From Odontocerum albicorne (lineage: Eukaryota; Arthropoda; Insecta; Trichoptera; Odontoceridae), in NCBI GenBank assembly GCA_949825065.1, contig OX463841.1, positions 21,509,381-21,573,380 on the forward strand: 64,000 nucleotides of DNA, read 5' to 3'. A program made the position numbers and the translations under genes. Position 1 is the stretch's first letter. Each line of letters begins with the position of its first letter. The notes below the pieces were generated by a model. The model worked only from the letters and a program-made list of their open reading frames with translations. It did not search any database and was not told the origin of the DNA. Positions 5,848 to 64,000 of this stretch are shown in pieces.

Positions 5848-5973
5848 TTGATTAGAAGGATTGAATATCACAAAGTACGAGTAATAGGTTTCTCCTAATT
5901 TAACTCTAAATTGATTAGAAGGAATGAATATCACAAAGTACTAGTAATAGGTTCTTCCTAATTTAACTCTAAA
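5848..5973 (+). repeat. 63-bp tandem duplication
   Basis: Two adjacent units (5848-5910 and 5911-5973) begin TTGATTAGAAGGAWTGAATA and differ at only a few positions. One difference lies inside the octamer at the same place in each unit: TACGAGTA at 5876-5883 and TACTAGTA at 5939-5946. Confidence 0.85.
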
Positions 5974-6149
5974 TTGCGGTTAAAGTTGTTTTACAAAATA
6001 AATAATGATTAGTTATGAATTATTTTTTAAAATGGTATACACACTTGAAATCAAATAAATATCATGCTTTAAGAATAGTTTCAAACTTTCTGTCGCACAA
6101 AATTAAAATTTGTACAATTTTTAATTATAATTTTGTCATTCTTCATTTT

Positions 6150-6395
6150 CTTAGCATCTCTTTCATCAACAGAAGTTGGCAATCATCGTTGCTATCTTTA
6201 GTTACTTTGAACAAGGATCTTGTATTCTTCATTTTCCAACAAAGCGTTGGTCTTGTATCTTCCTTTTCAGGACTATTAACTTGGAGTGTTTCATAATTAT
6301 TCTTACTCATTACTTGCACATAGTACTCCAATTTTGTGTTCTTGATAGTTAACAGTACTTCTTTTTCGTCATGAAATCCTCAGAATTCTCCTGCA
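6150..6395 (-). pseudogene. Non-LTR retrotransposon C-terminal fragment
   Basis: The minus strand is open for about 75 codons and contains KNTKLEYYVQVMSKNNYETL. This resembles the conserved segment K-x-KLEYFGHIMRN-x-KYELLQ near the C-terminus of a common arthropod endonuclease/reverse-transcriptase family. The following SLFKVTKDSND resembles the segment nearer the end of those proteins, but the spacing is shortened. No other part of the element remains. An unrelated host exon cannot be excluded, because the frame is clean over its short length. Confidence 0.45.
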
Positions 6396-7466
6396 GCACT
6401 GTGATTCAAAGACTTCTAGTCCTTTTATGGTAACTTGGGCTAGTGTCTAGGTCTATACACCATAAAGAGGTTCTGAAAATATGTAGCACTGTATAATTCA
6501 CATTTGTAATTAATTGTAGGTTGAAATTTTTATTACTGAGGATATTTCGCACTTAGAAGAACTTTCTCACTATCTTAATTCTGGTTTTAATCTTTTGATA
6601 ATGGTCCAATTCACAATTTCAAATTGTTGACGTAAGAAACTGAAAAGAAATATTACCTATGATATTGTTTTTTTGAGTAAAAATCCATTGGTTATAGTAA
6701 AATTTAAATATTTTTCTGTTGTAAACCAATGTTTTTTTATATAATAATTACTTTATCAATTTTTGGAAAATATTTGAAAAATCCCATCTATTGTACAGTT
6801 TTACCAATTGGTGTCATACATACTCGAGAACAAGTTCCACTTATTAATTAAAATAAATTATTTAATCAATTTGATACTTATTACTCTACTTGTATGTGTA
6901 TAAATGCAATTTTTTAGATTTTTATGAGTTCATCAAATTTTTTAAATCAGTCGAGCACTTGTTAAACAAATTGTGAGATAAGAAAATTATCATTCCACCT
7001 TCATTTTATCCATGTAATTGGATATTTTTTTTATTTTTGTGATAGATTTGTTTTATCATATTTTATGATATTATATTTTTAGTTTACTGTAGAATAAGTA
7101 CGAGTAAATTGTGAATTTTCTAGCATTCATTCACCTTATACCAATATGCTTTATTTGAGGTTCAACTTTATATTGTTACCTTTAATCTATCACAAAAATG
7201 AACCTGAGTTAAATAAAATGTTATTTTTTTATATTTAAGGTTTTTATTAATTAAAGTATTACAAGAAACTAAATAGTTTTATTTCCCACTATAAATTAAT
7301 CAATGATATTAAATATCTTAAGAAAACTAAAAAAGAAAAACAGCCAGGACATTTCTGGCAATAGCAAGCATAGTACTTGATGGCTGGAGTGCGGAGGCTT
7401 TCTCCATGGTATGTTAAGTATTCCCAATGCAATGAATTGAAATTCATAATTTTGAATTTTATATTA
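6396..7466. other. No gene seen
   Basis: AT-rich sequence containing one TACGAGTA octamer (7099-7106). A 61-residue minus-strand frame at 7289-7474 is not recognised and has no supporting motif. Confidence 0.5.
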
Positions 7467-7534
7467 AGGATCATCAGAAGTTGTCTAATTTACTATAATT
7501 TTTTATAGTAAATTAGACAACTTCTGATGATCCT
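7467..7534. repeat. Perfect 32-bp inverted repeat (hairpin)
   Basis: The left arm (7467-7498) and right arm (7503-7534) are exact reverse complements, separated by TTTT. The arms begin AGGATCATCAGAAGTTGTCT. The palindrome lies 46 bp upstream of the TTAA that begins the piggyBac remnant. It may be a MITE core or a fusion of two inverted ends; no flanking duplication was identified. Confidence 0.9.
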
Positions 7535-7580
7535 CTTCCTTGACTAAACACAACACTATTTAGATTGTGTTTATGTTTAT

Positions 7581-8760
7581 TTAACCGTTTTAGTGCTATC
7601 CAGCGATATCGCGCTGCATGAGTCACTCGCGAAAATTGCGACGCGGCGCTTACGCGCTGAGTCATTTAGTGCGAGTTTGTCGTTCGTCAGAAGAGCTCAT
7701 TTGGTGGATAATACGACATTAGCACAACCTGGCCACTCAGATTATGATCCTTGCGGCAGATTTGACTATCTTATAAAGCACGCAAATACCGTGTTCCGTC
7801 AACATTACATACCTCACCAACAATTGTGCATAGATGAATCGCTAGTTGGAACACACTGCAATTCACATATAAAGCAATATCTCCCTAACAAGAAACACTA
7901 CAAATGAGGAATCAAATTTTAGATGCTGTGTGATTCTATTACAAACTATTGTTTAGGATTTTTTTGTTACAAAGGAGTGAAATGCACAGATGATAAAAAT
8001 TCTATCCAAAAGAATGGTCTCGGATTTACAGTTGTTATTAGCAATGGGAAACTATCTCAGTAAGGGCTACCATTTATTTACTGATAACTTTTACACCAGC
8101 TTACGTTTGGCGAAAGCCCTGCTATTAAACCATACATACCTGACAGGAACAATACAACGCAACAGAAAAGAGATTCCTATTGATGCTAAAAAAGCTAATG
8201 TCGGAGAGCCAAAATGTTTTGCTAATGATAACGTTTTATTGTGCTCTTTCAAAGACAAGAAGTCCAAACCCCACCCAGTGTTACTGATATCAACCAATGC
8301 AGACACCAATAGTGTAACCATAAAGAAAAAGCGAGGTAATTTTGAATCACAAAAAGCAAAGCCTTCAATGATTCATGATTACAATAAATACATGGGAGGA
8401 TTGGACGAATCGGACAAAATGTTGTACGTATATTTGGATGAACGAAGAACACTAAAATACTGGAAAAAAGTTGCATTCAACATATTCGGAAGAATGGTGA
8501 CCAGACTTCAGTTTATATCTGAAATTATAGAAGATATTGAAAAAGAATGGATGTTTCACAAAAACAGTGAACCGATACAACCAACTTCATCCAATAAAAA
8601 AAATTGTTTAGAAAAATTGTCCGGGCGCAATTTACGCCAGTGTGTAGTGTGCAGCAAAAAAATGAGATAAGACGATTCAACCTCGTATGCGCTCGCTGTA
8701 AAAAGGGACTACATGGACTTTGCGCGGGTAAACACAATTGTTAAGCGAGATAATTATATA
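7581..8760 (+). mobile_element. piggyBac-superfamily element, internally deleted
   Basis: The left end is placed at TTAA (7581-7584), followed by CCGTTTTAGTGC, a typical piggyBac-like terminus. A GC-rich subterminal region rich in GCG follows at about 7600-7690. The transposase pseudogene begins abruptly in mid-protein after this leader, so the N-terminal half has been deleted. No matching right terminus was found after the coding region; it is lost or lies undetected near 8760-8830. Confidence 0.65.
7593..8743 (+). pseudogene. piggyBac transposase (DDE_Tnp_1_7 family) pseudogene
   Basis: A piggyBac transposase cuts and pastes DNA at TTAA sites using three aspartates. All three contexts are visible here: LCIDESLVGTHC (near 7840), HLFTDNFYTSLRL (near 8085) and YMGGLDESDKML (near 8400). 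The C-terminal cysteine-rich finger is split by a one-base shift in an A run near 8657: RQCVVCSKK in one frame, then NLVCARCKKGLHGLCAGKHN in the next, ending at the stop at about 8743. Other lesions are a stop replacing a tryptophan codon near 7907, a frameshift near 8030, and a small deletion after FGRMV near 8495. The N-terminal half is missing. The conserved parts read well, suggesting moderate age. It cannot be active. Confidence 0.9.
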
Positions 8761-9360
8761 TTTTTTGTAGTTGTAAATGTGTAGTTTTTTTATTAGAAGC
8801 ATAAAATATCATTCTTTACTTGTTAAAATGCAAAAAGAATCAGATTGGAATTCTGTTTGAAAAAAATGGCTACCAACGGAAATCGAACCCGTAACGCGGG
8901 CTGGAAATGAGGCGTTTACCACGACGGTTTTTTTTTGTGTTTTTAGACTTTTAATGAAACGTAACATTCTTCTGGATGGAATATAAAATAAACGGATTTC
9001 TATCATGAAATACACACTTTACTGTTTTCGAAATAATAAAATCCAAATTAAAAATAAAACAAAAAAAGGCAATGTAAGATCATTATGTAAGTAGTACAAA
9101 TCAATAATTCCACTATATTCACTGTAGTATTCAGTCAGAGATAAAAAAATATGTATGCAATTCAGCATTGGAAATATTCGACATGCTGGAAAACGCAGCT
9201 GAAGTATTTTTGTTTATTAGTGCGAAACATAGCAGATGGGTGCACGTGCACGCAGTATATAGGTAGAGTGCAGCTTCTTTGTTACAGGGTTACTGTAAAC
9301 TATTTGAACAAAATTAAGGTTTACATTTTTTTATACGAGTATATATGTAAATAATTTCTT
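8761..9360. other. No gene seen apart from a SINE scrap
   Basis: Apart from the SINE head fragment at 8866-8928 this is AT-rich DNA. It contains one TACGAGTA octamer at 9334-9341. Small frames at 8809-9015 and 9151-9354 have no support. Confidence 0.45.
8866..8928 (-). mobile_element. tRNA-derived SINE, head fragment
   Basis: On the plus strand CTACCAACGGAAATCGAACC is the reverse complement of the SINE B-box region (GGTTCGATTCCCGTTGGTA in better copies). The A-box side breaks off into a T run near 8928. Only the tRNA-like head remains. Confidence 0.55.
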
Positions 9361-9681
9361 ATTTACTTTGATATCGAGTGAAGAATTCTATATTGATGCG
9401 CCCATAGGCGTCACCTGTATCAATCACCCGTCGTGAAGAGATTCATCATTTCGAAGGAAGAAAGAAACATCCAAAATAAAAAAATAAAATAAATTAATTC
9501 AGCACGCCGCTGAATCGGCCTTATCTATCTAAAGGTCCTTAGCCACGCCCTAACCATGAAAAGAGTCAGATGCCGATTCAAGTCGCGACCGTAACGGAAA
9601 AGGTATGGTAACAACGAATTGGGAAAATTCTTGACATGATAAACGGACTACTTACGCTGTTCGACAATACATCGTGGTCGC

Positions 9682-9688
9682 TATAAAA
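9682..9688 (+). promoter_or_regulatory. TATA box of the LTR-like repeat
   Basis: TATAAAA lies within GTCGCTATAAAAAG. The same context recurs on the minus strand at 11274-11280 in the partner repeat, so it is conserved between the two copies. Function is inferred only. Confidence 0.4.
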
Positions 9689-12120: not shown

Positions 12121-12129
12121 GTTTAAATA

Positions 12130-12565
12130 CTCGTAGGATACAAATGAAAGTAAACTAAATGCAGTAGAAATGAGAGCGTTGCGCAGAATGTCTGTTATAC
12201 AATGTACTCGTATGATAGAATAAGGAATGCGGACATTAAGAAATAATATAGATTGAAAAATATGCCGTGTTTGAGTTTAAGAAAGGAGCGTTAAGGTTTG
12301 GTCACGTAGAAATAATGAATCATGAAAGATTTACATAATAAATTTATACGAGTAGTAAATAATGTACGAGAAGTCTGGGAAGCCCTAGAAAAACGTCGCA
12401 CGATTAAATTAATCAAATTCTTAAAGGAGGAAGAGTGAAATGTCTTCATAATGAGAAAGTGTACATGACGAGGTGTATAGACGTGGCTAGAATATGGATG
12501 CTAGGATAGAATGAAGTGGAGATTTGTTTTTCTCCTAATCCCAACAGGAATATGACGTGATGGTG
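12130..12565 (+). mobile_element. RTE-like non-LTR retrotransposon, 3' end
   Basis: Broken frames read VEMRALRRMS near 12160 and MTRCIDVARIW near 12470, followed by FSPNPNRNMT. These match the last part of a common arthropod RTE-type protein, which usually reads like MRALRRI-x-GV and later MKRCMDV. The copy ends in GATGGTGATGATGA, the trinucleotide tail characteristic of RTE-type elements. The octamers TACTCGTA (12128 and 12205) and TACGAGTA (12347) interrupt it. Confidence 0.6.
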
Positions 12566-13270: not shown

Positions 13271-14395
13271 AAAGCGTTTTGTTAAATTGATGAAGGAAAA
13301 TATTATGTAACTGTTTTTCATTAATGTAAATAAAAATATTTGTCTGCTAGAAAATGGTTCTTTAATATAAAAAAAATAAAATAAGGTGTAGAAATAATTA
13401 AATATTCGATATTTATTACTTCTTTATGTTATATTTAATTCATTTAAACCATTTTTAAATTAATATTGTATTTCGAATAAAAAATATCAGATTTTTTTAT
13501 AAAAAAATAATGGATGGTGTAAAAATTACCTGAAATTTAAATCAAAATCTAATATATAAATTATTACACCAAGATCCGTAGTTTCAAGTAACAAAAATCT
13601 AATCAAGAGAAGCCTCTTTTTTCAATCGATCGACCTTACGTGCCAAGAGCTACGAGTATGTTGTGGTGTAGAACTCGGAAGGCGCTTTGCTCTTTTCATA
13701 GTTCTCTTTAGCATTTAGTTTTGTGTCGGTGCTGATAGCGGTAGGGTCGGTTGCCGCGCTTTCCAATTTCCCGCGCAGCGCGTGTTCCATTTTCAAAATG
13801 ACATGAAATTTACTGAATAATGATGTAAGGAAGTTTTTCTGAGAAAAAAATGTACCAAATTTTTTACTATAATAAATAATTGTTTAGATTAACATTAAAT
13901 CGAAATTAGGCATAACGAGCGGTTTTGTACGATATTTTTATGAAGAAAATTGACTACTTATCACGAAGTTACCACTGTGAACTAATAATTATTTTGTAAG
14001 GGTGGATTACATTCTCAAGTTTCTTTGCATGTGCGTATTTAAAAAGTAAATAAACCTGTAACATGATCTTTGAAATAATTATAAGACTACGAAAGTGTAA
14101 GCCGATCAAGCAAGTGAAAATGAATTACTTAGCCTATTGCGTACTTCATTGGTTTCTTTAGAGGACTCAATGCGATTAAATGACGTGATCCAATAAAAAA
14201 AGTTTTGTTTTAATCTAACAAAAATAAGTTAAGAAAAAATAATGAATAAAAGAGGTGTTTATTTTTTGAAACGCGACCGCAGTATAGGCATTAAAATGTG
14301 TTCATTTTATTCTGTGCCTTAAATTGTGATGAAGGTTCTGTTTTGTGAACGTTTTTGAAGGCTTTTGATGGGAACTTGTGATGTGAGACTGTAAG
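13271..14395. other. Upstream region of the host exon, no gene seen
   Basis: Mostly AT-rich, with a GC-richer patch at 13620-13800 containing CCGCGCTTTCC and CCCGCGCAGCGCGTG. This could be promoter-proximal or 5'-untranslated sequence for the exon at 14396, but no transcription start is identifiable. A TACGAGTA octamer lies at 13651-13658. Confidence 0.35.
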
Positions 14396-14525: not shown

Positions 14526-15084
14526 GTAAGTGCTATTTTTTGTCAATAATTATGATTGTTTAAGTTAATTAAAATATTTAAAAAATAAGAAATAAAAGTT
14601 TAGTAAATATTTTTTATAAATTAAATTTTTTTATAGTATCTGAAAAAATATCTTATCGTAATTTTGTATGTCATCATCAATAGTCTAAATGTTAATTATT
14701 TTATAATTTTTACTACAAACAATATAAAATTTTCCATCGATAGAGCCATAATAATGAAACGAAATGATTTCGCGATTGTATTGACAGTTTTTTTTCATAA
14801 GTTAATTTTAAGGGTTTGTAGCTTAAAGCTTAAATTTTTTCGTAACGTTACACCTTTAAATTGCAATATTTCGCATACCATCGATGTTGCGTAATCTTTT
14901 GCTGCAGTGCCTTAATGGGGAATCTTTTGTAATATATGACTATGTAAAAAATGATTTTTAAATAAGAAAAGCATTGAGAAAAAGCTTTTTTATCCATAAA
15001 ATATATCATTGGTTCAAAACTTTTGTTCATACGAGTATGTACGTGGTTTTGTTTATTACTTTCCGTCCTTAAGTGGTTTATTCA
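14526..15084. other. Start of putative intron, no gene seen
   Basis: AT-rich sequence immediately after the splice donor. Two small opposite-strand frames (14664-14894, 14848-15030) have no motif. The octamer TACGAGTA lies at 15030-15037. Confidence 0.4.
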
Positions 15085-15689: not shown

Positions 15690-17135
15690 TTGTATTTTTA
15701 TATTACTTCCACATTATGTATTCCACAGCAAATATTCATATTATACCTATACTACCGAGGTATTATGTTAAGATTACTTCCACATTATGTATTCCACAGC
15801 AAATCTTTATATTATACCTATACATACTACCGAGGTATAATGTTAAGATTACTTCCACATTATGTATTCCACAGCAAATCTTAATATTATACCTATACTA
15901 CCGAGGTATAATGTTAAGATTACTTCCACATTATGTATTCCACAGCAAATCTTAATATTATACCTATACTACCGAGGTATAATGTTAAGATTACTTCCAC
16001 ATTATGTATTCCACAGCAAATCTTAATATTATACCTATACTACCGAGGTATAATGTTAAGATTACTTCCACCTTATGTATTCCACAGCAAATCTTAATAT
16101 TATACCCATACTACCGAGGTATAATGTTAAGATTACTTCCACATTATGTATTCCACAGCAAATCTTAATATTATACCTATACTACCGAGGTATAATGTTA
16201 AGATTACTTCCACATTATGTATTCCACAGCAAATCTTAATATTATACCTATACTACCGAGGTATAATGTTAAGATTACTTCCACATTATGTATTCCACAG
16301 CAAATCTTAATATTATACCTATACTACCGAGGTATAATGTTAAGATTACTTCCACATTATGTATTCCACAGGAAATCTTAATATTATACCTATACTACCG
16401 AGGTATAATGTTAAGATTACTTCCACATTATGTATTCCACAGGAAATCTTAATATTATACCTATACTACCGAGGTTTAATGTTAAGATTACTTCCACATT
16501 ATGTATTCCACAGGAAATCTTAATATTATACCTATACTACCGAGGTATAATGTTAAGATTACTTCCACATTATGTATTCCACAGGAAATCTTAATATTAT
16601 ACCTATACTACCGAGGTATAATGTTAAGATTACTTCCACATTATGTATTCCACAGGAAATCTTAATATTATACCTATACTACCGAGGTATAATGTTAAGA
16701 TTACTTCCACATTATGTATTCCACAGCAAATCTTAATTTTATACCTATTCTACCGAGGTATAATGTTAAGATTACTTCCACATTATGTATTCCACAGCAA
16801 ATCTTAATATTATACCTATACTACCGAGGTATAATGTTAAGATTACTTCCACATTATGTATTCCACAGCAAATCTTAATATTATACCTATACTACCGAGG
16901 TATAATGTTAAGATTACTTCCACATTATGTATTCCACAGCAAATCTTAATATTATACCTATACTACCGAGGTGTAATGTTAAGATTACTTCCACATTATG
17001 TATTCCACAGCAAATCTTAATATAGTAGTATACCTACACTACCGAGGTATTATGTTAAGATTACTTCCACATTATGTATTCCACAGCAAATCTTTACATT
17101 ATACCTAACATATACTACCGAGGTATAATGTTAAG
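15690..17135 (+). repeat. 71-bp satellite array, about 20 units
   Basis: Units recur every 71 bp; the phrase CCGAGG was placed at 20 successive positions from 15755 to 17118. Central units are nearly identical, with a few one-base variants such as AGGAAATC for AGCAAATC. The first and last two or three units are more diverged and carry 4- to 5-nt length changes. Each unit folds: ATCTTAATATTATACCT pairs with AGGTATAATGTTAAGAT around a 9-nt loop (ATACTACCG) with one mismatch. The rest of the unit is TACTTCCACATTATGTATTC plus CACAGCAA. Frames at 15558-15955 are by-products. Confidence 0.97.
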
Positions 17136-17200
17136 ATTTGTTGTTATTGATTGTTTTATTTTATTTTGAAATGTCTCGTGTTGAAACGTCGTTAATTGTA

Positions 17201-18706: not shown

Positions 18707-19565
18707 ACGTAAACCAGGTTTTTGTCGATCCAGAATGCTGAAAGAATATATGTAAAACATACATACTATATATGTTACCATATTATCACGCTGTGTTTGT
18801 TACAAAACTTTCACCTCCTTTACGTTCATATATCTCGTCATGCACAATTTTCAATATGTAAAACAGCTTACTAATAATTTGAAATTAGTTGAATTAAGGT
18901 CTGCAAATTAAATCAGCCGGATAACATCAGAAATATGGAACATCTGGTAACTTAGCAGGCATACCATACAGTACCAATGTACCAGAGATTTTTTTTCGAA
19001 AAAAATGTAAAAGTATACTCATAATCCGATTTAAATTTAAATATTTGTAGGATTTAAAATAATTGCTTGGTGAGAAGTTTGGCATGGAATTACATAAAGA
19101 AACTTTTGACATAGATTGCCTGTCGCACAACAAAATACAATGAAAATAGCTTTTATTGTTGGTATGTTATGTTATGTGTACATGTTGAATGGCTAGCGTG
19201 ACATTAACGGATTGAAATTGAATGAATTGTTTGTTAATAGGTTTTGTTATTCTCTAGTTATTTTATGGATAACCACGTTTTCTCTGGCTGGAAAACGAAG
19301 AATCTTTTGTCCTATTTACTCGTATTATAAAAAATATAAAATATATTTACTTTCTTTATTAATTGTAATATTGATACCTACTAGTTACACCCAATTATAT
19401 CACACATCAAAAGAAAATATAACAATAATTTGAGATAGTCAATAATTCAAGCTTTTCTGTGAAGTGTCTTAAAAATACTGTATTTTAGTAAAATTTTTTA
19501 TCTATTCATCGATTTGTGGAAAATATCTATTAAGCGGATTTACTGAATGGCATTATACAGCGTCT
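18707..19565. other. No gene seen
   Basis: AT-rich sequence between two SINE copies, with TACTCGTA at 19317-19324. No supported coding sequence. Confidence 0.5.
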
Positions 19566-19786: not shown

Positions 19787-22589
19787 ACTTAGAAGCTAAT
19801 TAAAGGTCTACTCAAATGATAATCTAACCTTAGCTACAAATTATTGACAGATACTACGAATCAAACAATCGAAACATAAAAATAATATAAGTACATAATT
19901 TTAATAATATCTTTTCAAGGGTTTTCATCATTTGAATATAGAGGAAAACATCGACTGTGGTCTTTATTTAGGAACTTACCTGCAGGTGTATGATATATTT
20001 TACTAATACATTTTTATTTAATTTCAGCGGTCAAAATGACCTTTTTGATACAAAATACCTATAATAAAAAAACATGAACTGATAAAATCTAACATTGACA
20101 TGTATAATAAGCAGTGTTATACAATACCAAAATACTAGCAAGAGACGAACACCACAACAAGGCAAACCTATATAATTCAATCAATTCACCTCGGCAAGAA
20201 CAACTTCTTCACTTTACTTCTGTAAGTAGTTACGTGAAAAACCATATAATGCCCTTATTGATTGCCTAATATTTGCAGTCTTATTATGTAAGAGTTGTAC
20301 AAATAATTAGAATCAACCACTTCACAAGGAATTTGTAACATGAGATGCTGAGTTAGTTCCGGACTATTGAAATATGATCTGACAATCTTAAATAATGTTG
20401 TCAGGTCAGATACCTAGTTATATCTGACAAGGTTGTAAGACTTATCACTCCTAACAATATACCACATGCATTAGGTATGAAAACCATAACTAACTTATCA
20501 AGGCAATACGAACTACAATACAATACAAAGAAAATATTTCCAAATTTTCCAATACGTAATCGTTATAATTTTGTCATTTTTGTAATTTGTGAAATTGTAT
20601 GTGTGGTTTGTGTTCGTGTTCAAGGCGGTCTTCTTACTATTTTATAAGTTTCTGTTACTCTCGGGAGTTGAATAAAATAGTGCAAGTGTGAGGGGTTATT
20701 TAGTTTCACTTCCTCTCCCTCCGAACAGCAAACGAATGGTCATTCTTAAACTAAACGAGTGTTTTTATAGTGCCTCATTAAATTGATGGGGATTTTTCGG
20801 CATTCGTGTTCACAAAAAAATATGGTAGGCATATTTACAAGCATTACACATCACAAACAAGTGTTAACTTTTTTATGTTTTATTTTCATTGAATAATTCC
20901 TTCATAATTAAACTTAGAATGGTAATTATAAAAGTATCAAAAAATTAATATATAACCAAAAAATATTTAATTTGATAAAAATAATCAATTACGAGTATAA
21001 TCAGAAATACTTTATGAATTAGAAGTTAGAAATACTTTGAGGTGAAGTAAAATAAAAACATTTGACATATGGTATATCAATGACGATATATGTAGCGAAT
21101 TGGTGGAAAGCTTTTCTTCCTCCCTTTGTTCTTTTTCCATTTAACCTTTGACTCACTTTTATTTTCTTTTTTTAAAAGTTAGAAACTGATATGTCCAGTC
21201 TTTTTTTCTCATTCGGTCCTTTAAATATCTTTTTTCTCTCTCTTGTTTTTTGCCATTTACATTCACGCACTTTAAGTAGCCTTCTGATGGTTGGAATAGA
21301 TTGTCAATATGGTAATACACCCGCTAGATTATACGTGTGTTTTATACACAATCGAAAAAATAACGTGAATGGATAACATGGATTTTAATTCAAAATATAA
21401 AAAAAACATCTTTCTAAGTTTCCTACTTATTTAGGGAACCCAAATTGTCATTTATTTTCTTATTAAAACTTCCAAAAGAATTAACAATTTCAAATCGTTT
21501 TATTTTCCAACTATCACGATTGCCCTTATTTTATTCGTTTCTAAGAAAGAACGAAGCTAAAAAATTTGAAACTTTTCCAATTAGAGTAGACATTTTTTTA
21601 TTCTAAAAAATCTGAAATTAAAAACATATTACTGGTGTGATTCACGATGATTTGAATATTTTAGAAAATTTCATTGTGTTATTGAATTCTAGAGTTGTGT
21701 TCTATTTCCACAATTCGTCTATAAATGATCTTATTTTTAAATAATAGAATACCTTTCCCGTCATATTGCATACAAAAATTAAAATACAACGCTTCATCAC
21801 TTGACACTGGCGTATACTTCTTCATATATAGAAAACAAGCAAAGCTTTTATCATTCTGCCAACAATGCCAATTTGAGTATATTAAATGGAACAACCAGGG
21901 ATTTAGGTTTTTAAGGGTATTATTCAGTTGAACGGTTTCTCTACACGTTCGATTATATTATAAATACATCGACACGATCAATGTGTGTCAAAAATATTGT
22001 ATGAAGTTTTCATTTATATTCACAAATTTTGAGACCATTCAAAACAGATTGTCTTCAAGTGCACTTCTTAAATTCACGCCACAGGATCGGCAACGGCAAC
22101 AGCTCTGTTATATTACCCCTCCCTATTGAATCGATTTGAAACAATTAATTCGATGAAGATAAAATCGATGTCAGAGCTCTACATCTTTCCGAAGGAACAT
22201 CTCAGACACAGATTCGAAAGATATAATGAAAACATCCCATTAAGGGACTTGAATAATACAAAAAGATCAAGTTTGAAAATTTATGAATCAGAAAATTGTG
22301 GTATATGGGTATTTATTCATTCTTTCTAGTATCATAGTTTAATTGAACTAACCAACACAATTCAACATAAGATAAGCAAATTATGATAAATCTACATAAC
22401 GTATTTTTTTAATGGTTATTCTCCCAAATTTTGGTGATCCCTGCCAGTGAGCGTTGATGGGTTGATTACATCAATCGAGAATACATAATATATTCTAGAA
22501 GCGCAATCACAGTGATCTCACGCTATCAAAATTTAAAATAATGCCTCGTTTATCAAATAAGAATACTAATTTTATATCACTAATTTATT
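19787..22589. other. No gene seen over 2.8 kb
   Basis: AT-rich sequence. It holds one TACGAGTA (20990-20997) and a few short open frames (21191-21376, 21679-21931, 22126-22329) without any motif, splice context or repeat support. A short ACAATACAATACAAAG phrase near 20516 could be a SINE tail scrap. Confidence 0.45.
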
Positions 22590-24360: not shown

Positions 24361-24364
24361 AACT

Positions 24365-40921: not shown

Positions 40922-41394
40922 TCTCCAAGTCTGATGTGACAATTTCGTTCCGCTTAGAAAACTTCATTTCAATACTTGTACTTAGCTGCGGAGAACTTTT
41001 ATAACGGAGTATTCTTCGGACCATGTGTTCTAAACTGCATCTGTAATTTGGCGCATACTCGTAGATCCAACTGGAAAGTGTTTTTTAAACTTATTTTGAT
41101 TCTGGTTATGGATACAATTGCTGTTGAGTTTGTATTTTTTTAATACGTTTAAAATAGAACTTGATATAAACCTAAATAAATAAAATTAAATTAAAACATA
41201 AATTCTTAAGTTATTATTATGTGAATCACTCTAGTAAATTGGATATAAGCAGATTAACCAAACGTTTAAAGTTAGCATATTAAAATTTCTTCTATTAATG
41301 AACGACGTGTAACGATAGGAAACGAAGCCAAAGCCCTTAAACACATGTACTCAAATCTTGCAATAATAAAATCTCCTAAGATGATAGTTCACAA
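40922..41394. other. No gene seen
   Basis: AT-rich DNA with TACTCGTA at 41056-41063. Confidence 0.45.
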
Positions 41395-43455: not shown

Positions 43456-44149
43456 AAATAAGTTTATCGTCTATGTCATAAAATCTAGATTATTAAATTA
43501 TCTGTTAAACACATACTCGTACTTAAGTTTTCCTTAGATGAATTTCTGTTTAAATATAGCAATAACGTAAATCTAACAACACTAAGTTATAAGTACTCTT
43601 AGAAAATTTAAGTTTTGGCGCTTTGTCCTTAAAAAAGATACTAGTTACTATATTAAACATACTTAAATTGTAGTAAGGATTTGGAAAATAACCGAAAAAA
43701 GGAAATACGAGAAAGAATATCCATAGTGTTGAAGAACATCTGATTGAGTTAGCAAAATCGTTCAGAAGTCGAGCCGAGTGAACCGCCAAAGATGATGGTA
43801 ATGAGTTGGTATACAAATGGTAATGAGTTGGTTGGAGTTGGTAATGAGGTGGTATACAAAATATTGCGTAATGAGTTGGTATACAAAACATTATCCCGTC
43901 ATTACATCGAAGGGATAGCCCATGCTCAGAAAGAAAATTTATTTTCAACCCTTTTTGAAATGTTGACGGAACGTGGAAATTTTTACAGTAACTTAAAAAG
44001 TCTTTTGAATTTTATATACTATAACTTTTAAAGTGTTAATCGTAAATTGTTTGTAAACGTATGTTTTTGTACGTTTTAAAAATTTATTTCGATTGAATTT
44101 CACTATGGCCCGAGTTGGCCGCGGAGGTCGTTGCATGTTGTTAAAAATA
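43456..44149. other. No gene seen; short direct repeats inside
   Basis: Between about 43795 and 43890 the phrase GTAATGAGTTGGTATACAAA is repeated four times with variation. The opposing frames at 43550-43948 and 43792-44031 arise from this region. TACTCGTA is at 43514-43521. Confidence 0.5.
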
Positions 44150-46059: not shown

Positions 46060-48540
46060 AACCACGCTCCGATCGACTATCTTAATGGTTTTCCTTCCTT
46101 TATCTTTATTAAATTCGGCACGCCATTGTACGTCATGGGAGCCAAATAAGCATATTGCCTTTGGGCAAAAGAGGTTTTAACTCTAGGGTTGGTGAACATT
46201 TCATTAGTTGCCTTGCGTGTCATGTGTCTCTGCTGAGTCTGCATCTTCCCTTCCTTTCGATGGTAGTGCCAGAGAATGGATTTGTGATGCAAATTGGCTA
46301 TATTCAGGACTCGATACTCTCTGAAAAGCTCCGCCGTGGGATACCGGGCAGGAAGTTAATTAATTATTTCCACCCAAATATATCCCCCCAAACTGATATA
46401 CCGTAGGAAAGTGCTGACTGACATAAGGCGAAGTATGTACTCGTACTTTCAAGAATATTTTTACTGAGCACATTTCGAATCATACGGAATATGTATCCTA
46501 GTTTTTTGATTTTTGTGCTCAAAGTGTTAATATGGACCTCTCAACGAAGGAACTGATCAACATAAACTCCGAGGTACTTTATACTATCAACCCTTTCCAA
46601 AGAAACACAACTACAGTCAGCCATGGGTGAACAAGTGTGCAGTGTTATGTATTTATTTGTAAGTGCTTGAGTTCTTGTAGATATACTAAATGTAATGTAT
46701 TTAGTTTTTTGGGAATTTAGAGTCAATAAATTTGAGTCCATCCATTCTTAAACTACACGTAATTCTTCGTTAGCCTTTGAAAATACATCATCCCATGTTC
46801 GGCCCTCGAACAGAAGAACCGTGTCGTCCGCAAAAGTAATAATCTTACCCCTGATAGAAAGATTACACAACTGATTGACATATATCAAGAACAATATAGG
46901 TCCCAGAACACTACCTTGGGGTACTCCGAATGTCACAAAAAGGGGCTCATCAAATACACTATCACCCAATTTGACTCTCTGAGTTCTATCAGATAAGTAT
47001 GAAGAGAACCAACTAGAAGAGCGCCCACATATGCCCACCTCCATCAATCCGGTAAGTAATATTTGGCGAGACACTGTATCAAAAGCCTTTGCAAGGTCCA
47101 AAAAAACTGCCAAACATGCTTTCTTATTATCCAAAGTGGTGGTAACGCTGTTTACTAGACTAAGCAAAGCAGTTTCAGTTCCCACATTCTTTTGGAACCC
47201 AAACTGATTAGGAGAGATAATGTTGTGCATATTGAAAAATTTCATCAGTCGGTCTTTCACTACTTTCTCAATAATTTTTGAGAGAATGCTTAATAACGAT
47301 ATGGGTCTATAATTTTTTAAATCGTCCATTGAGCCTCCCTTGTGTATTGGGACAATATGCGAACGTTTTAATGCAGTTGGGAAAGTTACACTTCTAAAAC
47401 TCAAATTTATTACATGTTTCAGTGGTAGTGCTATAAATCTTTGAGTGTGTTTTACCATTGCAGATGTAATCTGATCAGGCCCTGGGGCGCTACTTGCCTT
47501 AAGTGTACTAATAGTAGCTAGAACTTATTTTTCCGACGTTGGCGTCAGATAAAAAGTATATTTGGGTACCTTTAAAGAATGAAGAATAGCGTTATTCAAT
47601 TACTGTTCAGTCGTTTTATTCCCATCAATTATGTTACGTGAGAGATTATTGCCTACATTGGCGAAATATTCGTTAATGCCACTACAAATTTTTTGTGGTT
47701 CCTGTGTCAATGATATTTTTGTGCCATCAATGTTTAATGTAGAAGGGGCATTTTTCTCTCTCACTGTTCCGGTGATGTCCCTGATAACATTCCAAATTAT
47801 CTTTTGATCATTGTTTGAGGCTTCAATTTTTGCTGTATAGAAATTTTCCTTTGCTTTTGGATGATTCTCTTGCATGTATTTCTGTATTGCTTGTAAAATG
47901 TTATTGAGTGTGGATCACTGCATGTCTTGAGTTCCCGGTGCGGACGATCTCTTTTGCGTATACAATAAATCAATCCATCAGTGATCCAAGGTTTGAGTTT
48001 TGGTTACCTTCTGCTTCTAATGTGTATTGTCTGTGTGGCTGAGTTGATATGGAAGTTAAAAGCATTAACAAAGCTCTCCATAGCTTCATTTACATTATGG
48101 GACTTGAGAGTATCTTGCCAATTATCCGATTCAAGGGAGTGCAAGAGCTCTGGTATGCTCGTAATTATTTTACTTTTCATGCACATCCTTCTTTGTCTAC
48201 TTGCACCCTCTGAAAACCCCAATATAATTGCGTAATGGTCAGTAATTGTTGTCTCATACACTACCGCTCTAGCCTTCTGCCGAGTTCTTACCATTGCGTG
48301 ATCAATGCAGGAACCCGAACCTAAAGTCACGCGTGTGGGAGTCGTGATAAAAGGAATCAATCTAATGTTGGGACCAATACTCCATTATGAGGAGACAGCA
48401 TTGTTTCTCTTAAAATGCTCCGGTCGGTTAACATATTGTATAGCTCACCATTCACTTTATTGCCTGCTGCTTCTCTTCTTTGAATATCGCACATCGCGCG
48501 GTCCTCCGATGGGAACATTCTTCCGAGATTTAAATTTCTT
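46060..48540 (-). mobile_element. CR1/jockey-type non-LTR retrotransposon, degenerate
   Basis: A single element can be followed on the minus strand: endonuclease C-terminus (48360-48004), linker (47875-47600), reverse transcriptase (47458-46541), thumb region (about 46540-46380) and a final segment (46292-46077) reading NPRVKTSFAQRQYAYLAP. The junction near 46380-46290 appears shortened. The 5' end is missing beyond about 48540, and no poly-A tail or target duplication was seen. Frameshifts lie at about 47880, 47470-47590 and 46745. The octamer TACTCGTA (46438-46445) interrupts the thumb region. Confidence 0.85.
46541..48360 (-). pseudogene. Endonuclease/reverse transcriptase (ORF2) pseudogene
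   Basis: The minus strand encodes, in order, the end of an AP-like endonuclease (TPTRVTLGSGSCIDHAMVRT, with the SCIDH motif, and TTITDHYAIILGF) and a linker. The reverse transcriptase follows: GGSMDDLKNYRPISLLSILS, motif A CLAVFLDLAKAFDTVSRQIL, motif B FGVPQGSVLGPILFLIYVNQ and motif C KIITFADDTVLLFEG, with both catalytic aspartates present. Then, after a frame change at about 46745, come NLLTLNSQKTKYITFSI and KYLGVYVDQFLR. Known biology: ORF2 nicks target DNA and reverse-transcribes its own RNA. This copy is dead from frameshifts at the domain junctions, yet the motifs are well preserved. Confidence 0.9.
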
Positions 48541-49730: not shown

Positions 49731-51369
49731 TATGCCCTACGATTCTAATCTCTACCAAAATACCTCAATAGTATTATGTTCCACCAGTGTATTATTATAC
49801 GGTAAAATATTTTCTCAAATTGATCACCAAGAACAAGCGATAATTAGTGTGTCACACTGTCAGAAGGCAAGTTGATAGATGTGATTATAAGGTTCTTTAT
49901 TTCAGATCTCGAATCGAAGTCTAGAGCGTTGGGACTGGGAGGTAAGCAATGAGGTGGATACGAGTATATGATATAGCCCAAGTTGTTGGCTTGAACTGGA
50001 TGCATAACACATAACGACCTAGCGACAGTTGTGAAAAGATATGTCTTGATTCAGCAGAAGGGGAGACAGGAAGATTGAAAGTACAAATTACAAAATACAT
50101 TTAGTATTTCAAGTACTTTCACACATAAAATATTGCTTATATTCTTATATAAAATCAATCCAATTATGCACACAAAAAAATATTTTGAACGAGGAAAACT
50201 GGAATTGGAATCTTAATCAGATAAAAAGGTAATGTAATATTAGACACTGCATTTAATGTTCCAGTAAACAATCATCATAATGTTCTAGTAAATATGACAC
50301 ATGATTTATTCTTTGATTTTACAATATTCATTATCGAAAACAATGATTCAAATAAACGTATAAAAAAACTTATATCATATTGTGTGCTTAACTTTTAAAG
50401 AATGTCGACGTTTTTTAATTACCAAATCCAAGATTTTTTTTATTAATAAATTTATTACAATACCATTCTGAAATTTAAAAATATTTAGTTCGAGTTTTTC
50501 TGGGAAAACAATCAATTGATCTTGATCATTCTACATCATAATTTGTTTTTAATAAACTTGAAGAAGTCTATGAAGAGGGTGGAGGAGTGTGTGTCGAGGT
50601 ATATCATACACGCGTGTCAATTGAAATGTGTTAATGAAGTTTACGTGCTGCTTTTTGTTCTTGCGCGTCATATGGGGCTGTACCTTTTGGGCCCTGGCCT
50701 GTTGTGTGATGTAGCACTATATACTTAGTTTTGCAAGCAAATTGTACGAATAATGTTAATGTTTTATGTACATTATTAAAACATCTAGTATTTCTCTATT
50801 GAGTCGCACGTTTTGTAAAAATAATCAATGGTCGAAATCGCAAGTAAATAAATAAATACGTATCCGTCCAAATTTTCGGAATAGCATTGTCAACATGTTC
50901 TCTTTCAATATACTCAGCTCTTATTCATCCTGACTTTATTGAGTTGCCATTTTCAAGATTAAAATCTGGCCCTCACGAGGTTATTTTTATTACGGAACAA
51001 CATACATCAACAACATTTATTAACGAGTATTTTAAGTTGCTATCGAAAATTTATTTACTCTGTAGCTGCCACACATAAATGCACCGGTTGATACAAAGGT
51101 GCCCCGGGCACAGGGCTGGTGACCCCTGTCTCGGGGCATCTTAGTAAATGAAACGCAGCGGGAATCCTCACAGGAGCTTTCCCCTGTGGTAAATGTTTTA
51201 TAATGTTCTGTGATTAAATTGCACAATTTCCTTGGTTTTAAGTGCAATTTCCCATTTTTACTTTTAGGGTGAAAGATAAAAGACTTAATTAATTATATTT
51301 TTTAAGCTTTAATGTCTCTCATATTATCTCAGATTTACATTTTCATTTTAAACATATAGTAGGTCTTCT
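49731..51369. other. No gene seen over 1.6 kb
   Basis: AT-rich DNA with TACGAGTA at 49959-49966. A 70-residue frame at 50516-50728 and a 63-residue frame at 50887-51078 are unrecognised. A GC-richer patch at 51085-51180 contains short inverted phrases (CACAGG and CCTGTG) but no coding signal. Confidence 0.4.
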
Positions 51370-52109: not shown

Positions 52110-52970
52110 CACAGATATATACCTTTGGGCTAGTTGAAACAAACTTATCCAGGGCACTTGAATCAATGGCCAATTATTACAAAGAGAATGAGCTAAAACC
52201 AAACCCTTCTAAAACACGAGTTTGCGCTTTCCACATGCGCAACTGAGAAGCAAGTACAATATTATTTGGAATCATACAATACTGGAACACTGTCCCATAC
52301 CTAAATACGAGTATATTGGTGTCACTCTCGACCTAACGCTTTCATTCAATGTCCATTGTGCAATGTGAAACGAAAGGTTAGCGTTCGGAACACCCTGATC
52401 AGAAAATTAACGAACTTTTCCTGTTGCACAAAATCTTCCGTCATCCTAATCTCAACACTGGCCTTGTGCTACTCAGCTGGTGAATACGCATGTCCTGTCT
52501 GGAGTAGATCGACTCATGCAGGACAGGTGAATATTTCCCGGGTTGCCTTAAACACGCCGCAAGAAATATGGTGCACGTCCTCACCGGGATTGTTCCACCG
52601 AAAAGCAGAAGAGACATTGGAAGCAGTACTGAGTCATCCAACATCGGACTGAGATAGAAACATCGGACCCCGGCGGGAAGATTTTGCCTGTTGAATCATT
52701 GTCACTTGGCTCTGAACTGCCCTGGAGAACCTGGAAATCTTTTTACTGACTCCGGATAGGAATTGAGAGAACCAAGGACAAATTTCGAAATGGGGAATGT
52801 TACGTGATGGATTATCTCTCTGTATTTGTGGTGAGATGCAGTTAATGCGACATTTGTTACAGTATCCGAGGAGCCCAGTGTCTTGCACTACAGAGGACTT
52901 GATTTGTGGAACGCCCAGTGCTCTCAAGGTGGCAGAATTCTGGGCGGAAGTAGTATGGTGTTTTATACAC
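52110..52970 (+). pseudogene. Jockey-like reverse transcriptase, C-terminal half, degenerate
   Basis: Across several frames the plus strand reads LSRALESMANYYKENELKPN and PSKTRVCAFHMRN (about 52150-52245), then KYIGV-LD when CGAGTA at 52308-52313 is ignored. TLALCYSAGEYACPVWSRST follows at about 52450-52515, and the C-terminal zinc-knuckle-like SLCICGEMQLMRHLLQYPRS plus VSCTTEDLICG to KVAEFWAEVV (about 52807-52950). The order corresponds to the post-catalytic part of a jockey-type element. The catalytic palm lies 5' of the fragment and is absent. Confidence 0.75.
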
Positions 52971-55165: not shown

Positions 55166-55924
55166 TTAAAAAATATTTACTTCCGTCATTATTGACGGTT
55201 TATTACTAGTATTCATATGTTTTCAGATATTTTATATTTATCCAAAAATCTCAAAACTGATAGAATATGTGTAAGATGTTTTTTTGTGCATATTTATTTA
55301 CCTCCAAACGTCATAATAGAAGTAGCAGTCTTCGAATCATATAATAGTAATGATTTCTACGAGTAGTCTTTGAATCATATTAAAGAAGCAAAAGCCTTGG
55401 AATCATAACAGTAGGAATAGTCTTTGAATCACAATAAAAGTAACAATCTTTGAATAAAAATAAATGTAATAAATAGTATTTGAACCATAATAGAAAACTA
55501 CATCAACGATTCCAGAGTATAGTCCAAGAATTGATGAGTTAGGCGCTAAAATACCTCGCGTAGACTCGACATTAAAGTTGTCAAAACTTAATAATTGAAA
55601 TTCATATTTCGAGAAATACTTGAGCCCACACAATTCAAACATACTCAAGTTGACAGATTAAAAATAATCCTTAAACATTCAAATTAATGAATTCGTATTG
55701 TACCTCTCAACATTCCGAATTGGTGATACGGACATATTAAGGAGCGTGGACATTGTCTTCGGCCCTATTAGTTAAGCCTTCGGGTTTAAAACCACTAGAG
55801 TAGGCATGAATCTCGCAATTTGACAATACTACAATACGTGAAGAGGTAACAACACTCGCATACGTCAAGCGCGCGATTATTCTTACCAGACGAACTACGA
55901 GTATGTACAAAACGGAATCCAAAT
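55166..55924. other. No gene seen; short minisatellite inside
   Basis: At about 55318-55500 a 25-30 bp unit (AGTCTTTGAATCATAATARA type) is repeated about six times with variation. One unit carries TACGAGTA at 55358-55365. A second octamer is at 55896-55903. Confidence 0.5.
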
Positions 55925-57151: not shown

Positions 57152-57172
57152 AACTAGGTCACGGAGGTCGTT

Positions 57173-58323: not shown

Positions 58324-58670
58324 ATTCCATGTCATTATGCTTACATATTTTCTGCCAAGAGACATGTCATTATGCTTACACCATTTCCGTCCAAGAGATA
58401 TGTCATTATGCTTACACATTTTCCGTCTAAGAGACATGTCATTGTGTTGACACCTTTTCCGTCCAAGATATATGTCATTATGCTTACACACCTTCCGTCT
58501 AAGAGACGTGTCATTGTGTTGACACCTTTTCCGTCCAAGAGATATTTCATTATGCTTACACATTTTCCGTCTAAGAGACGTGTCATTGTGTTGACACCTT
58601 TTCCGTCCAAGAGATATGTCATTATGCAAACATATTTTCCATGTAAGAGACGTGCCGTCGTGCTTACACC
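58324..58670 (+). repeat. 36/72-bp satellite, older diverged block
   Basis: About nine to ten 36-bp half-units of the form GTCATTATGCTTACACATTT, then TCCGTCTAAGAGAYGT. Half-units alternate so that the true period is 72 bp, but they are more diverged than in the main block. It ends with the flank CTTACACCTTTTCAACGATA (58663 on). Confidence 0.9.
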
Positions 58671-58721
58671 TTTTCAACGATAGTATATTTCAACGAGTAC
58701 ATGGTACATTTAAGAGACTTG

Positions 58722-60270
58722 CCTTTTCCATTTAAGAGAATTGCCATAGTGCTTACACCTTTTCCGTTCAAGAGATATGTCATTATGCTAACATATTTTC
58801 CATGTAAGAGACTTGCCATAGTGCTTACACCTTTTTCGTCCAAGAGATATGTCATTATGCTAACATACTTTCCATGTAAGAGACTTGCCATAGTGCTTAC
58901 ACTTTTTCCGTCCAAGAGATATGTCATTATGCTAACATACTTTCCATGTAAGAGACTTGCCATAGTGCTTACACCTTTTCCGTCCAAGAGATATGTCATT
59001 ATGCTAACATACTTTCCATGTAAGAGACTTGCCATAGTGCTTACACCTTTTCCGTCCAAGAGACATGTCATTGTGATAACATATTTTCCATGTAAGATAC
59101 TTGCCATAGTGCTTACACCTTTTCCGTCCAAGAGATATGTCATTATGCTAACATACTTTCCATGTAAGAGACTTGCCATAGTGCTTACACCTTTTCCGTC
59201 CAAGAGATATGTCATTATGCTAACATACTTTCCATGTAAGAGACTTGCCATAGTGCTTACACCTTTTCCGTCCAAGAGATATGTCATTATGCTAACATAC
59301 TTTCCATGTAAGAGACTTGCCATAGTGCTTACACCTTTTCCGTCCAAGAGATATGTCATTATGCTAACATACTTTCCATGTAAGAGACTTGCCATAGTGC
59401 TTACACCTTTTCCGTCCAAGAGATATGTCATTATGCTAACATACTTTCCATGTAAGAGACTTGCCATAGTGCTTACACCTTTTCCGTCCAAGAGATATGT
59501 CATTATGCTAACATACTTTCCATGTAAGAGACTTGCCATAGTGCTTACACCTTTTCCGTCCAAGAGATATGTCATTATGCTAACATACTTTCCATGTAAG
59601 AGACTTGCCATAGTGCTTACACCTTTTCCGTCCAAGAGACATGTCATTGTGATAACATATTTTCCATGTAAGATACTTGCCATAGTGCTTACACCTTTTC
59701 CGTCCAAGAGATATGTCATTATGCTAACATACTTTCCATGTAAGAGACTTGCCACAGTGCTTACACCTTTTCCATCCAAGAGATATGTCATTATGCTAAC
59801 ATACTTTCCATGTAAGAGACTTGCCATAGTGCTTACACCTTTTCCGTCCAAGAGACATGTCATTGTGATAACATATTTTCCATGTAAGATACTTGCCATA
59901 GTGCTTACACCTTTTCCGTCCAAGAGATATGTCATTATGCTAACATACTTTCCATGTAAGAGACTTGCCATAGTGCTTACACCTTTTCCGTCCAAGAGAT
60001 ATGTCATTATGCTAACATACTTTCCATGTAAGAGACTTGCCATAGTGCTTACACCTTTTCCGTCCAAGAGACATGTCATTGTGATAACATATTTTCCATG
60101 TAAGATACTTGCCATAGTGCTTACACCTTTTCCGTCCAAGAGATATGTCATTATGCTAACATACTTTCCATGTAAGAGACTTGCCATAGTGCTTACACCT
60201 TTTCCGTCCAAGAGACATGTCATTGTGATAACATATTTTCCATGTAAGATACTTGCCATAGTGCTTACAC
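58722..60270 (+). repeat. 36/72-bp satellite, main block of about 21 units
   Basis: The 72-bp unit is two related 36-bp halves: CATAGTGCTTACACCTTTTC (continuing CGTCCAAGAGATATGT) and CATTATGCTAACATACTTTC (continuing CATGTAAGAGACTTGC). Because 72 is a multiple of three and the units lack stops, both strands stay open for about 530 codons. On the minus strand the product would be repeats of MASLLHGKYVSI and MTYLLDGKGVST. No start context, splice sites or non-repetitive coding sequence accompany it, so it is annotated as satellite. A variant unit with GACATGTCATTGTGATAAC recurs at about 59059, 59635, 59851, 60067 and 60211, spacings of 8, 3, 3 and 2 units. Confidence 0.95.
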
Positions 60271-60300
60271 CTTTTCAACGATAGTATATTTCAATGAGTA

Positions 60301-61726: not shown

Positions 61727-61728
61727 TA

Positions 61729-62817
61729 TTAGGTCCTTACATATGAAATTGGCGTTTTGCCGTACTGGCAACTTTGATCTCAAATATCTTCTCTTTGGTT
61801 AGGAATTCCAAATTAAAATTTATACAGCTATTTACTCAAGTATTTGTGTTTCGAAAATTATAATTCATTTGTTTTTTCCTCAATTGTTTTTTTTTCTTTG
61901 CGTCACTCAGTTTACAAAATGGAAAACTTGAAATATCGCGTTATTTACGAGTACGAGTTCCACCGTGGCACCAGTGCTGCAGAAACGGCTCGAAGGATTA
62001 ATGATGTGTATGGCGACGGTGCCGCAAGCAAATTGGGAAGGTGAAAAAGCTTGAAAGGTGGGTACCTCACGAATTGAGTGAAGCAAATCAACAAACGCGC
62101 GTTGACTGCTGCGTTGCATTACTCAACCGGCACAATAATGAAGGGATTTTGAATCGAATCATTACCTGTGATGAAAAGTGGATCCTGTATGATAATCGGA
62201 AGCGCTCATCGCAATGGCTGAACCCTGCCGAACCAGCCAAACCATGCCCCAAGCGAAAATTGACTCCAAAAAAGTTACTTGTGAGCGTTTGGTGGACTAG
62301 TGCTGGTGTCGTTCACTACAGCTTTCTTAAATCTGGCCAGACGATTACGGCAGATGTCTATTGTCAGCAACTGCAAACCATGATGGAAAAGCTAGCTGCT
62401 AAACAACCGAGGCTGGTTAATCGCTCTAGGCCACTGCTGCTTCATGATAACGCTAGACCACACACTGTACAACAGACGGCTACCAAATTAGAAGAGCTTC
62501 AATTGGAATGTCTAAGACATCCACCGTACTCTCCGGACCTTGCCCCAACAGATTACTATTTTTTTCGAAATTTGGATAACTTCTTGCAAGGGAAAAAATT
62601 CAACTCCGATGGGGCAGTCCAAACCGACTTCAAAGATTTTATTGATTCCCGTCCGAATAGTTTTTTTAGTAAAGGGATCGATGAACTACCTATGAGATGG
62701 CAAAAGTGCATAGATAGCAATGGTACATACTTTGATTAAATAAATATATTATATTAAAAAAAAATCAACTTTATGTTCCTCCCAAACAAAACGCCAATTT
62801 CATATGTAAGGACCTAA
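61729..62817 (+). mobile_element. mariner element with perfect 31-bp terminal repeats
   Basis: Both ends begin TTAGGTCCTTACATATGAAA and continue identically through TTGGCGTTTTG, giving 31 perfect base pairs. TA flanks each side (61727-61728 and 62818-62819). Length is 1089 bp against about 1.3 kb for intact mariners, explained by one internal deletion. Perfect terminal repeats suggest recent mobility. Confidence 0.97.
61919..62739 (+). pseudogene. mariner transposase with internal deletion
   Basis: The start is MENLKYRVIYEYEFHRGTSA, then AETARRINDVYGDGAA, the first helix-turn-helix. At about 62020 the frame jumps from GDGAA to KQIGKVKKLERWVPHELSEA, losing roughly seventy codons (the second helix-turn-helix and linker) and changing frame, so translation stops at 62042. 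From 62041 the rest is intact. The first catalytic aspartate is in IITCDEKWILYDN, the second in LLLHDNARPHTVQQ, and the third in PPYSPDLAPTDYYFF. There are 34 residues between the last two, the DD34D spacing of mariner. It ends SNGTYFD. The catalytic half is well preserved, but the missing DNA-binding region makes this copy non-autonomous. Confidence 0.95.
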
Positions 62818-62819
62818 TA

Positions 62820-63382
62820 TTAATATTTCTAATGTTTTGGGCATTATCATTAACTTATAATTGAGGTATAGGGAGCTTTGTTGGCTTAGTGCATGAGTGT
62901 TCAATCTTTAAGGTTCACTGGGTCACATCGAGTCCATGAGAATTTATCATGGGCTGCTTGTAAAATCGAACATTTATTAATATATAACCCATAATATTTT
63001 TTCAGTAAAATATATGTATATTTACTAGAAAAAAAAACTATAAATATAAAATTAATTACATATTTGAGCTTTTTGTTGTGAAACTGCATCTACCATATAT
63101 CAGACTTACTGTATGCAGCTGCAATTTAAATCGAACTTTCAAAATGGTCATCAGAAGTTTTGATCCGCATGTTGCTTTTCGTGTGCTTCATTCTGGAGAA
63201 AAGTTATTCACAAATGTACAATATGTGCTATAAAAATGTGAACACATGAATACGGCATTTACGTTAAGCAAAGAATTTTTCGTTCGGAAGAAACAGCTTA
63301 TCAAAACCCAACACATATTGCATAGAATTGCATATTTAATTGCAGCTCGACACATTCCATTTGCAAATTCGCATGTAAACAC
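62820..63382. other. No gene seen
   Basis: AT-rich DNA. The frames at 62901-63089 and 63188-63497 are unsupported, and the latter overlaps a SINE. Confidence 0.45.
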
Positions 63383-63515
63383 ATTGTATTGTATTACACT
63401 TTCATTGTATACAGTACAACCTGATGGGCTTATTGCCAAGTGGCAATATCTTCCAAACAATCAGAAATATGTTAAAGAGGCCTTAAGTGAAAACTAGACT
63501 GGAATCCTTTTTAAA
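63383..63515 (-). mobile_element. tRNA-derived SINE, 3' part
   Basis: CATTGTATTGTATTACACTT tail, GTACAACCTGATGGGCTTAT, ATATCTTCCAAACAATCAG and AGAGGCCTTAAGTGAAAACT, then GACTGGAATCCTTT. The tRNA-like head is absent. The sequence is close to the family consensus. Confidence 0.8.
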
Positions 63516-64000
63516 GAAAAACAAAATAGCAAAATAATACAGTGACATCCCTTTGGCTGCAACAACAGGCGATAAAGGCCGTATGCGATAAGCGGCCCGC
63601 GGGCTGGACAAGTATGGCTTAGTGTATATGATTGTATATGAGTGATTGCCAATTATTTTTTAGCCCGAAATAATTTTTATCAAGTCAAAATAAAAATTAT
63701 CTCGGGCTACAGGTTTAACTTTCAGATTCTATAAAACAATATCTTCAAGAAGCTTGAGTTGTTTTAGTTACAATGTATTTTAAAAATACTCGTACGTTTG
63801 AATTTGACTGTACCATATATAGGACATGCTTTTACGATTCGTCTTTCAGGCCTGTAACGAAACTTCCTAAAAAATAACGGTTTCTATGAGTATATTGATG
63901 ATTCCGTATCCCATTATTTTCATAAAAAAATGTATGGAAAGTTTTCATTATTCTTTGGATAGTAATATTTCAAGTATTTAGTTCCATAATATTAGTACCT
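63516..64000. other. No gene seen; one short hairpin
   Basis: A 20-bp inverted repeat (TAGCCCGAAATAATTTTTAT at 63661-63680 and its near complement at 63690-63709) has one mismatch and a 9-nt loop. The octamer TACTCGTA lies at 63787-63794. Confidence 0.5.

Follow-up and report, generated by a model that had tools for sequence, protein, structure and literature searches.

An over-represented octamer in a 64-kb stretch of the Odontocerum albicorne genome, probably the excision footprint of a Minos-like transposon

The stretch of DNA considered here, called the window below, covers 64,000 bases of the trichopteran Odontocerum albicorne (assembly GCA_949825065.1, contig OX463841.1, positions 21,509,381 to 21,573,380) and carries relics of transposable elements, namely reverse transcriptases and mariner and piggyBac-like transposases. 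It has 66% A+T, in line with the two-thirds given in a first-pass annotation of this DNA, CpG is near expectation (0.94), and no Rfam match was obtained at gathering scores. Scattered through it are copies of an octamer, TACGAGTA (n = 13) or its reverse complement TACTCGTA (n = 12), which that annotation had read as footprints left by the excision of a Minos-type transposon. All 24 octamer starts that it listed are exact. The 25th, at 61946, lies within a mariner open reading frame (ORF) and was absent from the earlier list, which was restricted to sites outside conserved coding sequence. The two orientations are nearly equal in number and, as the words are reverse complements of each other, this balance is uninformative about the strand used in repair without a strand reference.

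We compared the octamer count with several expectations. In 100 dinucleotide shuffles of the window the mean was 1.33 octamers (standard deviation 1.17, largest 5) and none of the shuffles reached 25, so that the excess over chance is approximately 19-fold (25 versus 1.3). Roughly two or three octamers had earlier been predicted by chance; the low expectation stands, and the shuffles give slightly less. Markov models of the unmasked window expect 1.4 to 2.4 octamers at orders 1–4, and the expectation climbs to 9.2 at order 5 and 20.6 at order 6 because such models contain most of the octamer itself. Among the 1372 octamers with at least eight counts, the word ranks 13th, 23rd, 18th and 9th at orders 1, 2, 3 and 4 in the unmasked window, where words from tandem arrays outscore it. 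When six chosen tandem stretches were masked, which drops the site at 37573 and retains 61946, it ranks first with 24 copies versus 1.6 expected (z = 16.6; runner-up z = 9.1). It is the full word that is in excess: its 24 one-mismatch neighbours total 49 versus 41 expected, and no other TA-N4-TA word is strongly enriched (next z = 4.3). The signal is sharp and is not an effect of composition. The 24 sites other than 61946 are evenly placed along the window (Kolmogorov–Smirnov p = 0.96). When the flanks of all 25 octamers (250 bp per side) were compared by self-BLAST and matches overlapping the query stretch were discarded, no shared family spanned the octamers except for a local duplication at 5876.

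Four octamers could be polarised by comparison with related sequence. At the DNA level, the octamer at 37573–37580 (minus orientation) lies where a repeat array ends, and an upstream copy of the same repeat at 37434–37505 (plus strand) is without exactly six bases at the corresponding position. With those six bases removed, the two match at 94.4% identity over 72 bp with no gaps. One TA is present in the upstream copy where 37573 reads TACTCGTA, so that at this one locus CTCGTA was added at a TA, and of the two TA copies that now enclose the insertion one was there before. Three more copies of the repeat core, at 37384 (plus), 37525 (minus) and 37431 (minus), are also without the six bases.

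Two further sites were polarised at the protein level. The octamer at 46438–46445 (minus orientation) makes an in-frame two-residue insertion in a relic of a non-LTR retrotransposon reverse transcriptase (46367–47521, minus strand), recognised by its translation, which holds two in-frame stops, and by a Pfam RVT_1 match on 46748–47521 (E = 1.5e-31). The extra two residues are missing from all 116 homologues that span the site (120 aligned, four of which do not span it), although one of the 116, P0113, aligns poorly there. Among the 120 matches listed, the named homologues come from moths and butterflies. The octamer accounts for the sole two-residue insertion in the 385-residue query, the one other insertion being of a single residue. 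This relic contains 12 TA-N4-TA words, and only the octamer coincides with an insertion whereas the 11 others do not. A similar result was obtained with a second reverse transcriptase relic, in which the octamer at 52306–52313 (plus orientation) gives an in-frame two-residue insertion. It is missing from all 16 homologues (of 25 aligned) that have residues to either side of it, and from 18 of 18 when spanning is defined less strictly. The 143-residue query, which joins two reading frames and has a two-residue deletion beside the joint, shows no other insertion.

The fourth polarisable octamer, at 61946–61953 (plus orientation), is no scar. It is ancestral coding sequence of a mariner transposase ORF, where it aligns without gaps with SETMAR (7s03_A), and the Pfam HTH_48 profile matches at equal length (residues 6–37 on profile positions 4–35). 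Since chance predicts one or two octamers, one ancestral copy is expected, and 61946 is a chance match. The surrounding mariner element (61729–62817) has TA-flanked inverted repeats and transposase pieces (Transposase_1 and HTH_48). Thus, a six-base insertion at TA was seen in three of the four polarisable octamers. The first-pass annotation had named an ancestral octamer within each repeat family as the result that would speak against its idea; at the four sites where this could be asked, the word is ancestral only at 61946. These alignments support the idea that the octamers are scars at three of the four testable sites, and this part of the earlier proposal is retained for 37573, 46438 and 52306, together with the target-like flanks described below, and not for 61946.

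We also considered the bases next to the octamers, read as half-sites toward the TA for the 24 sites without 61946. At position –1, A occurs in 25 of 48 half-sites and T in four (Fisher p = 2e-5), T or C occurs at –2 in 29 of 48, and A occurs at –3 in 29 of 48. The flank score is 1.73 for the 24 octamers versus 1.22 for 650 control TA-N4-TA sites (p = 3e-5). Including 61946, and with masking applied, it is 1.68 versus 1.23 (p = 1e-4). With the six bases removed, the flanks resemble a palindromic target of the Tc1/mariner type, A-Y-A-TA-T-R-T, which we take to match the target form of Sleeping Beauty. This supports rather than proves insertion at such targets.

Empty sites were screened by BLAST with joined 45-bp flanks at 676 TA-N4-TA sites, including the 25 octamers. 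Of the 26 matches, 21 fall in a 71-bp satellite, and inspection covered the four others besides 37573. None of these is a clean empty site: at 45812 and 45902 the matched copy itself carries the word, and 3150 and 55455 give weak gapped matches. The case for 37573 rests on its alignment and not on this screen. Two other words were considered as possible footprints and are not claimed. TACAATA occurs 57 times versus 24.7 expected after masking, window-wide; as a second, five-base class it has a flank score of only 1.30 versus 1.23 in the control, T at –1 has a frequency of 0.19 versus 0.35 in the control, and two of 59 sites gave empty-site matches, at 81–83% identity. TACACGTA occurs seven times versus 1.9 expected, and its copy at 46754 in the 46-kb relic is without an insertion.

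Four octamers are leads only. At 32537–32544 (minus orientation), within a plus-strand relic of a reverse transcriptase C terminus, the translation reads LRW[YS]YGHV, where LRWFGHV is presumably the usual form of the motif; at 49959–49966 (plus orientation), in another such C-terminal relic, it reads RWI[RV]YDI, where we assume that RWxDDI is usual. The two others, 12205–12212 (minus) and 12347–12354 (plus), lie in a plus-strand reverse transcriptase relic at 12.1–12.5 kb and were likewise judged from translation. At all four, omitting six bases would give motifs typical of reverse transcriptase C termini. A homologue search with the 12-kb relic gave one candidate and none that was significant, relatives in viral contigs were confirmed for neither of two queries (the 32-kb relic among them), and mutual alignments of the 12-, 32- and 49-kb relics within the window were uninformative. 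A further presumed scar at 12128–12135 (minus) brings to three the octamers in 227 bp of this one decayed relic (12128–12354); local hopping is possible there, but three starts in 219 bp do not make a significant cluster (p = 0.064). The octamer at 5876–5883 (plus) is a presumed scar that, from comparison within the window, was afterwards copied along with its 63-bp unit; one base differs in the duplicate at 5939, which reads TACTAGTA. Exact matches mark the other presumed scars, which are in plus orientation at 7099–7106, 9334–9341, 13651–13658, 15030–15037, 20990–20997, 30845–30852, 55358–55365 and 55896–55903 and in minus orientation at 19317–19324, 29536–29543, 31022–31029, 36224–36231, 41056–41063, 43514–43521 and 63787–63794.

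Taking these results together, we consider that most of the octamers are probably excision footprints of a Tc1-family transposon with CGAG...CTCG ends, Minos-like, and give this a probability of roughly 0.84. Passages in two reports describe insertion of Tc1/mariner elements at TA and footprints left by end joining after excision (PMC2874221, PMC7827188). For Minos, excision is described as leaving a six-bp footprint or a deletion (PMC3386967; PMC10992017), and one of the three sequenced lethal excision alleles in a part of another report gained 6 bp (PMC6980720). In the window, a donor element would have inserted at TA, duplicating it, and later departed. Its transposase would cut inside each end, leaving four terminal bases on each flank as 3' overhangs. 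End joining would then anneal these overhangs, with the outer C and G pairing and the inner two bases mismatched, and repair retaining one strand would give TA-CGAG-TA or TA-CTCG-TA with a net gain of six bases. Mixed forms are expected from independent repair of the two mismatches. However, they are rare (TACGCGTA 0 and TACTAGTA 2, one of these being the 5939 duplicate, versus 13 and 12), so both mismatches seem to be resolved together. On this reading, excision would be the origin of the scars and the donor would be of the Minos lineage, perhaps mostly as short non-autonomous copies, with scars accumulating as the neutral residue of repeated jumps while the element remains rare. That exact-end scans of the window gave no CGAG-ended donor fits a rare element of this kind.

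There are several points that weigh against this interpretation. One polarised octamer, 61946, is ancestral, and 21 of the 25 are unpolarised (16 are without comparison sequence, four depend on motifs in translation and one is known from its duplication). The left half of the flanks is weak alone (1.50 versus 1.96 for the right half), and the flank consensus was compared after the flanks had been seen. Octamers were not favoured in the empty-site screen, which matched one of the 25 versus 26 of the 676 sites, 37573 included. A Minos-lineage donor would have CGAG ends, long inverted repeats and a DD34D transposase; no CGAG-ended element was found in the 64 kb with exact-end scans, which decayed ends could escape. 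From the published cases, the gain in the remaining two of the three sequenced Minos alleles was 4 and 8 bp (PMC6980720), and passages on excision repair in rice describe a messier outcome, with just the duplicated target left in 8 of 94 (PMC4423477).

Two results from the donor scans bear on individual candidates. A pair TACGAG...CTCGTA that passed a loose 15/30 cut was rejected as a donor; its ends are the octamers at 9334 and 12128 and the match is AT-rich. Nor does CGAG directly follow TA in any of the 40 best inverted repeats that are bounded by TA and have exact ends of 10 bp.

The alternative that survives best keeps the footprints and contests the label, the scars coming from a non-Minos element that also targets TA and ends in CGAG. 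The length of six bases and the letters CGAG or CTCG with TA are read directly, and the scar records four terminal bases only; because no donor was found, it is these four letters and the scar length that point to Minos. The window also has TA-flanked elements with other ends, the mariner at 61729–62817 and a foldback beginning ACAGGGTGTC. Against this, Minos ends in CGAG and its excision letters are TA-CGAG-TA or TA-CTCG-TA, and to our knowledge a CGAG four-base footprint is the product of Minos, whereas the footprints of the other Tc1/mariner elements that have been studied are two or three bases long. We regard another donor as possible but doubtful. The foldback (2499–3597) has arms of approximately 490 bp with 88% identity and begins beside a T-rich TA context; we take it to resemble a non-autonomous element of the Tc1/pogo type.

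A second alternative is that no insertion took place and that the octamer, recurring through the window as a motif, is ancestral or has a function, for instance in binding a protein. At least one octamer, 61946, is ancestral coding sequence, and a maintained motif would also agree with a core that is nearly palindromic and with one-mismatch variants that form no clear cloud (49 versus 41). However, three loci show a six-base addition in dead retrotransposon or repeat DNA, where a conserved site is unexpected, and the octamers are evenly placed; we consider this explanation improbable. Short tandem duplication or replication slippage could add six bases, given the repeated TA inside TACGAGTA and the small in-frame insertions that are common in relics, but slippage copies neighbouring bases and the empty copy at 37434–37505 holds no CTCG there to copy, nor is any other TA-N4-TA word comparably enriched, which leaves slippage with very little in its favour. 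Chance or a compositional artefact is refuted for the window and deserves next to no credence, because neither the shuffles nor the Markov models of orders 1–4 come near 25, and the high expectation at order 6 is from a model fitted to the octamer's own 7-mers.

Other features of the window include a piggyBac-like transposase relic at 7990–8667 (DDE_Tnp_1_7). The 71-bp satellite at 15702–17138 has 20 copies with a 96% match and an internal near-palindrome around ACCGAGGT. A 72-bp tandem array at 58328–60276 stays open over long frames of 531 and 527 amino acids, found on both strands; these are probably repeat artefacts and not genes.

If excision of a Minos-like element left the octamers, their density can be estimated as (24 – 1.4)/0.064 Mb, or 353 scars per Mb (95% interval 218–536). 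A crude age is approximately 0.043 substitutions per site, and up to 0.12 at two standard deviations, with the neighbour excess being within noise. One long period of activity would fit the scars as well as separate waves would. The copy number of a transposon gives survivors only. Excision scars record departures and are usually too little sequence to recognise. Here, an eight-letter footprint bearing CpG stands out in AT-rich DNA, so that departures become countable. It is an even bet, in our judgement, that scars of one Tc1-family element are dense enough for the word to count past jumps, far outnumbering surviving copies; their density would be about 350 per Mb were the window representative of the genome. 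Were this true, a census of a footprint word could be used to reconstruct from any single assembly how cut-and-paste families, extinct ones included, have jumped in the past. An assembly alone would then suffice to measure the departure-to-survivor ratio, how faithfully transposon breaks are repaired and what fraction of six-base insertions is due to transposons.

Such footprints are already known. In a limited open-access search, we found no full-text paper with TACGAGTA or TACTCGTA as a whole word and no genome-wide study of a footprint word, and both the density of about 350 per Mb and the use of the word as a record of activity seem to be new. As a comparison, Sleeping Beauty has a palindromic AT-rich target resembling the octamer flanks and differs in having a three-base overhang and another footprint. 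Rice DNA transposons were scored for excision across aligned genomes of Asian and African rice; passages in that report describe mostly messy repair, with 8 of 94 being perfect, and report no over-represented footprint word (PMC4423477). Natural fossil footprints, with one to four terminal-repeat bases beside TA duplications, are described in part of a report on a Stowaway MITE (miniature inverted-repeat transposable element) of the Tc1/mariner type in the Triticeae (PMC1925063). That case concerns one intron across species with several footprints, whereas the window has one uniform word through unrelated sequence. A further comparison is Minos of Drosophila hydei, in the Tc1 family, for which passages in three reports describe a gain of six bases on excision, like that of the window scars (PMC3386967, PMC10992017, PMC6980720). 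The printed Minos cases are laboratory mobilisations, whereas the window would hold natural scars at an average spacing of about 2.8 kb and shows no donor. The window appears to preserve a natural record, both dense and clean, of footprints from a process of a known type.

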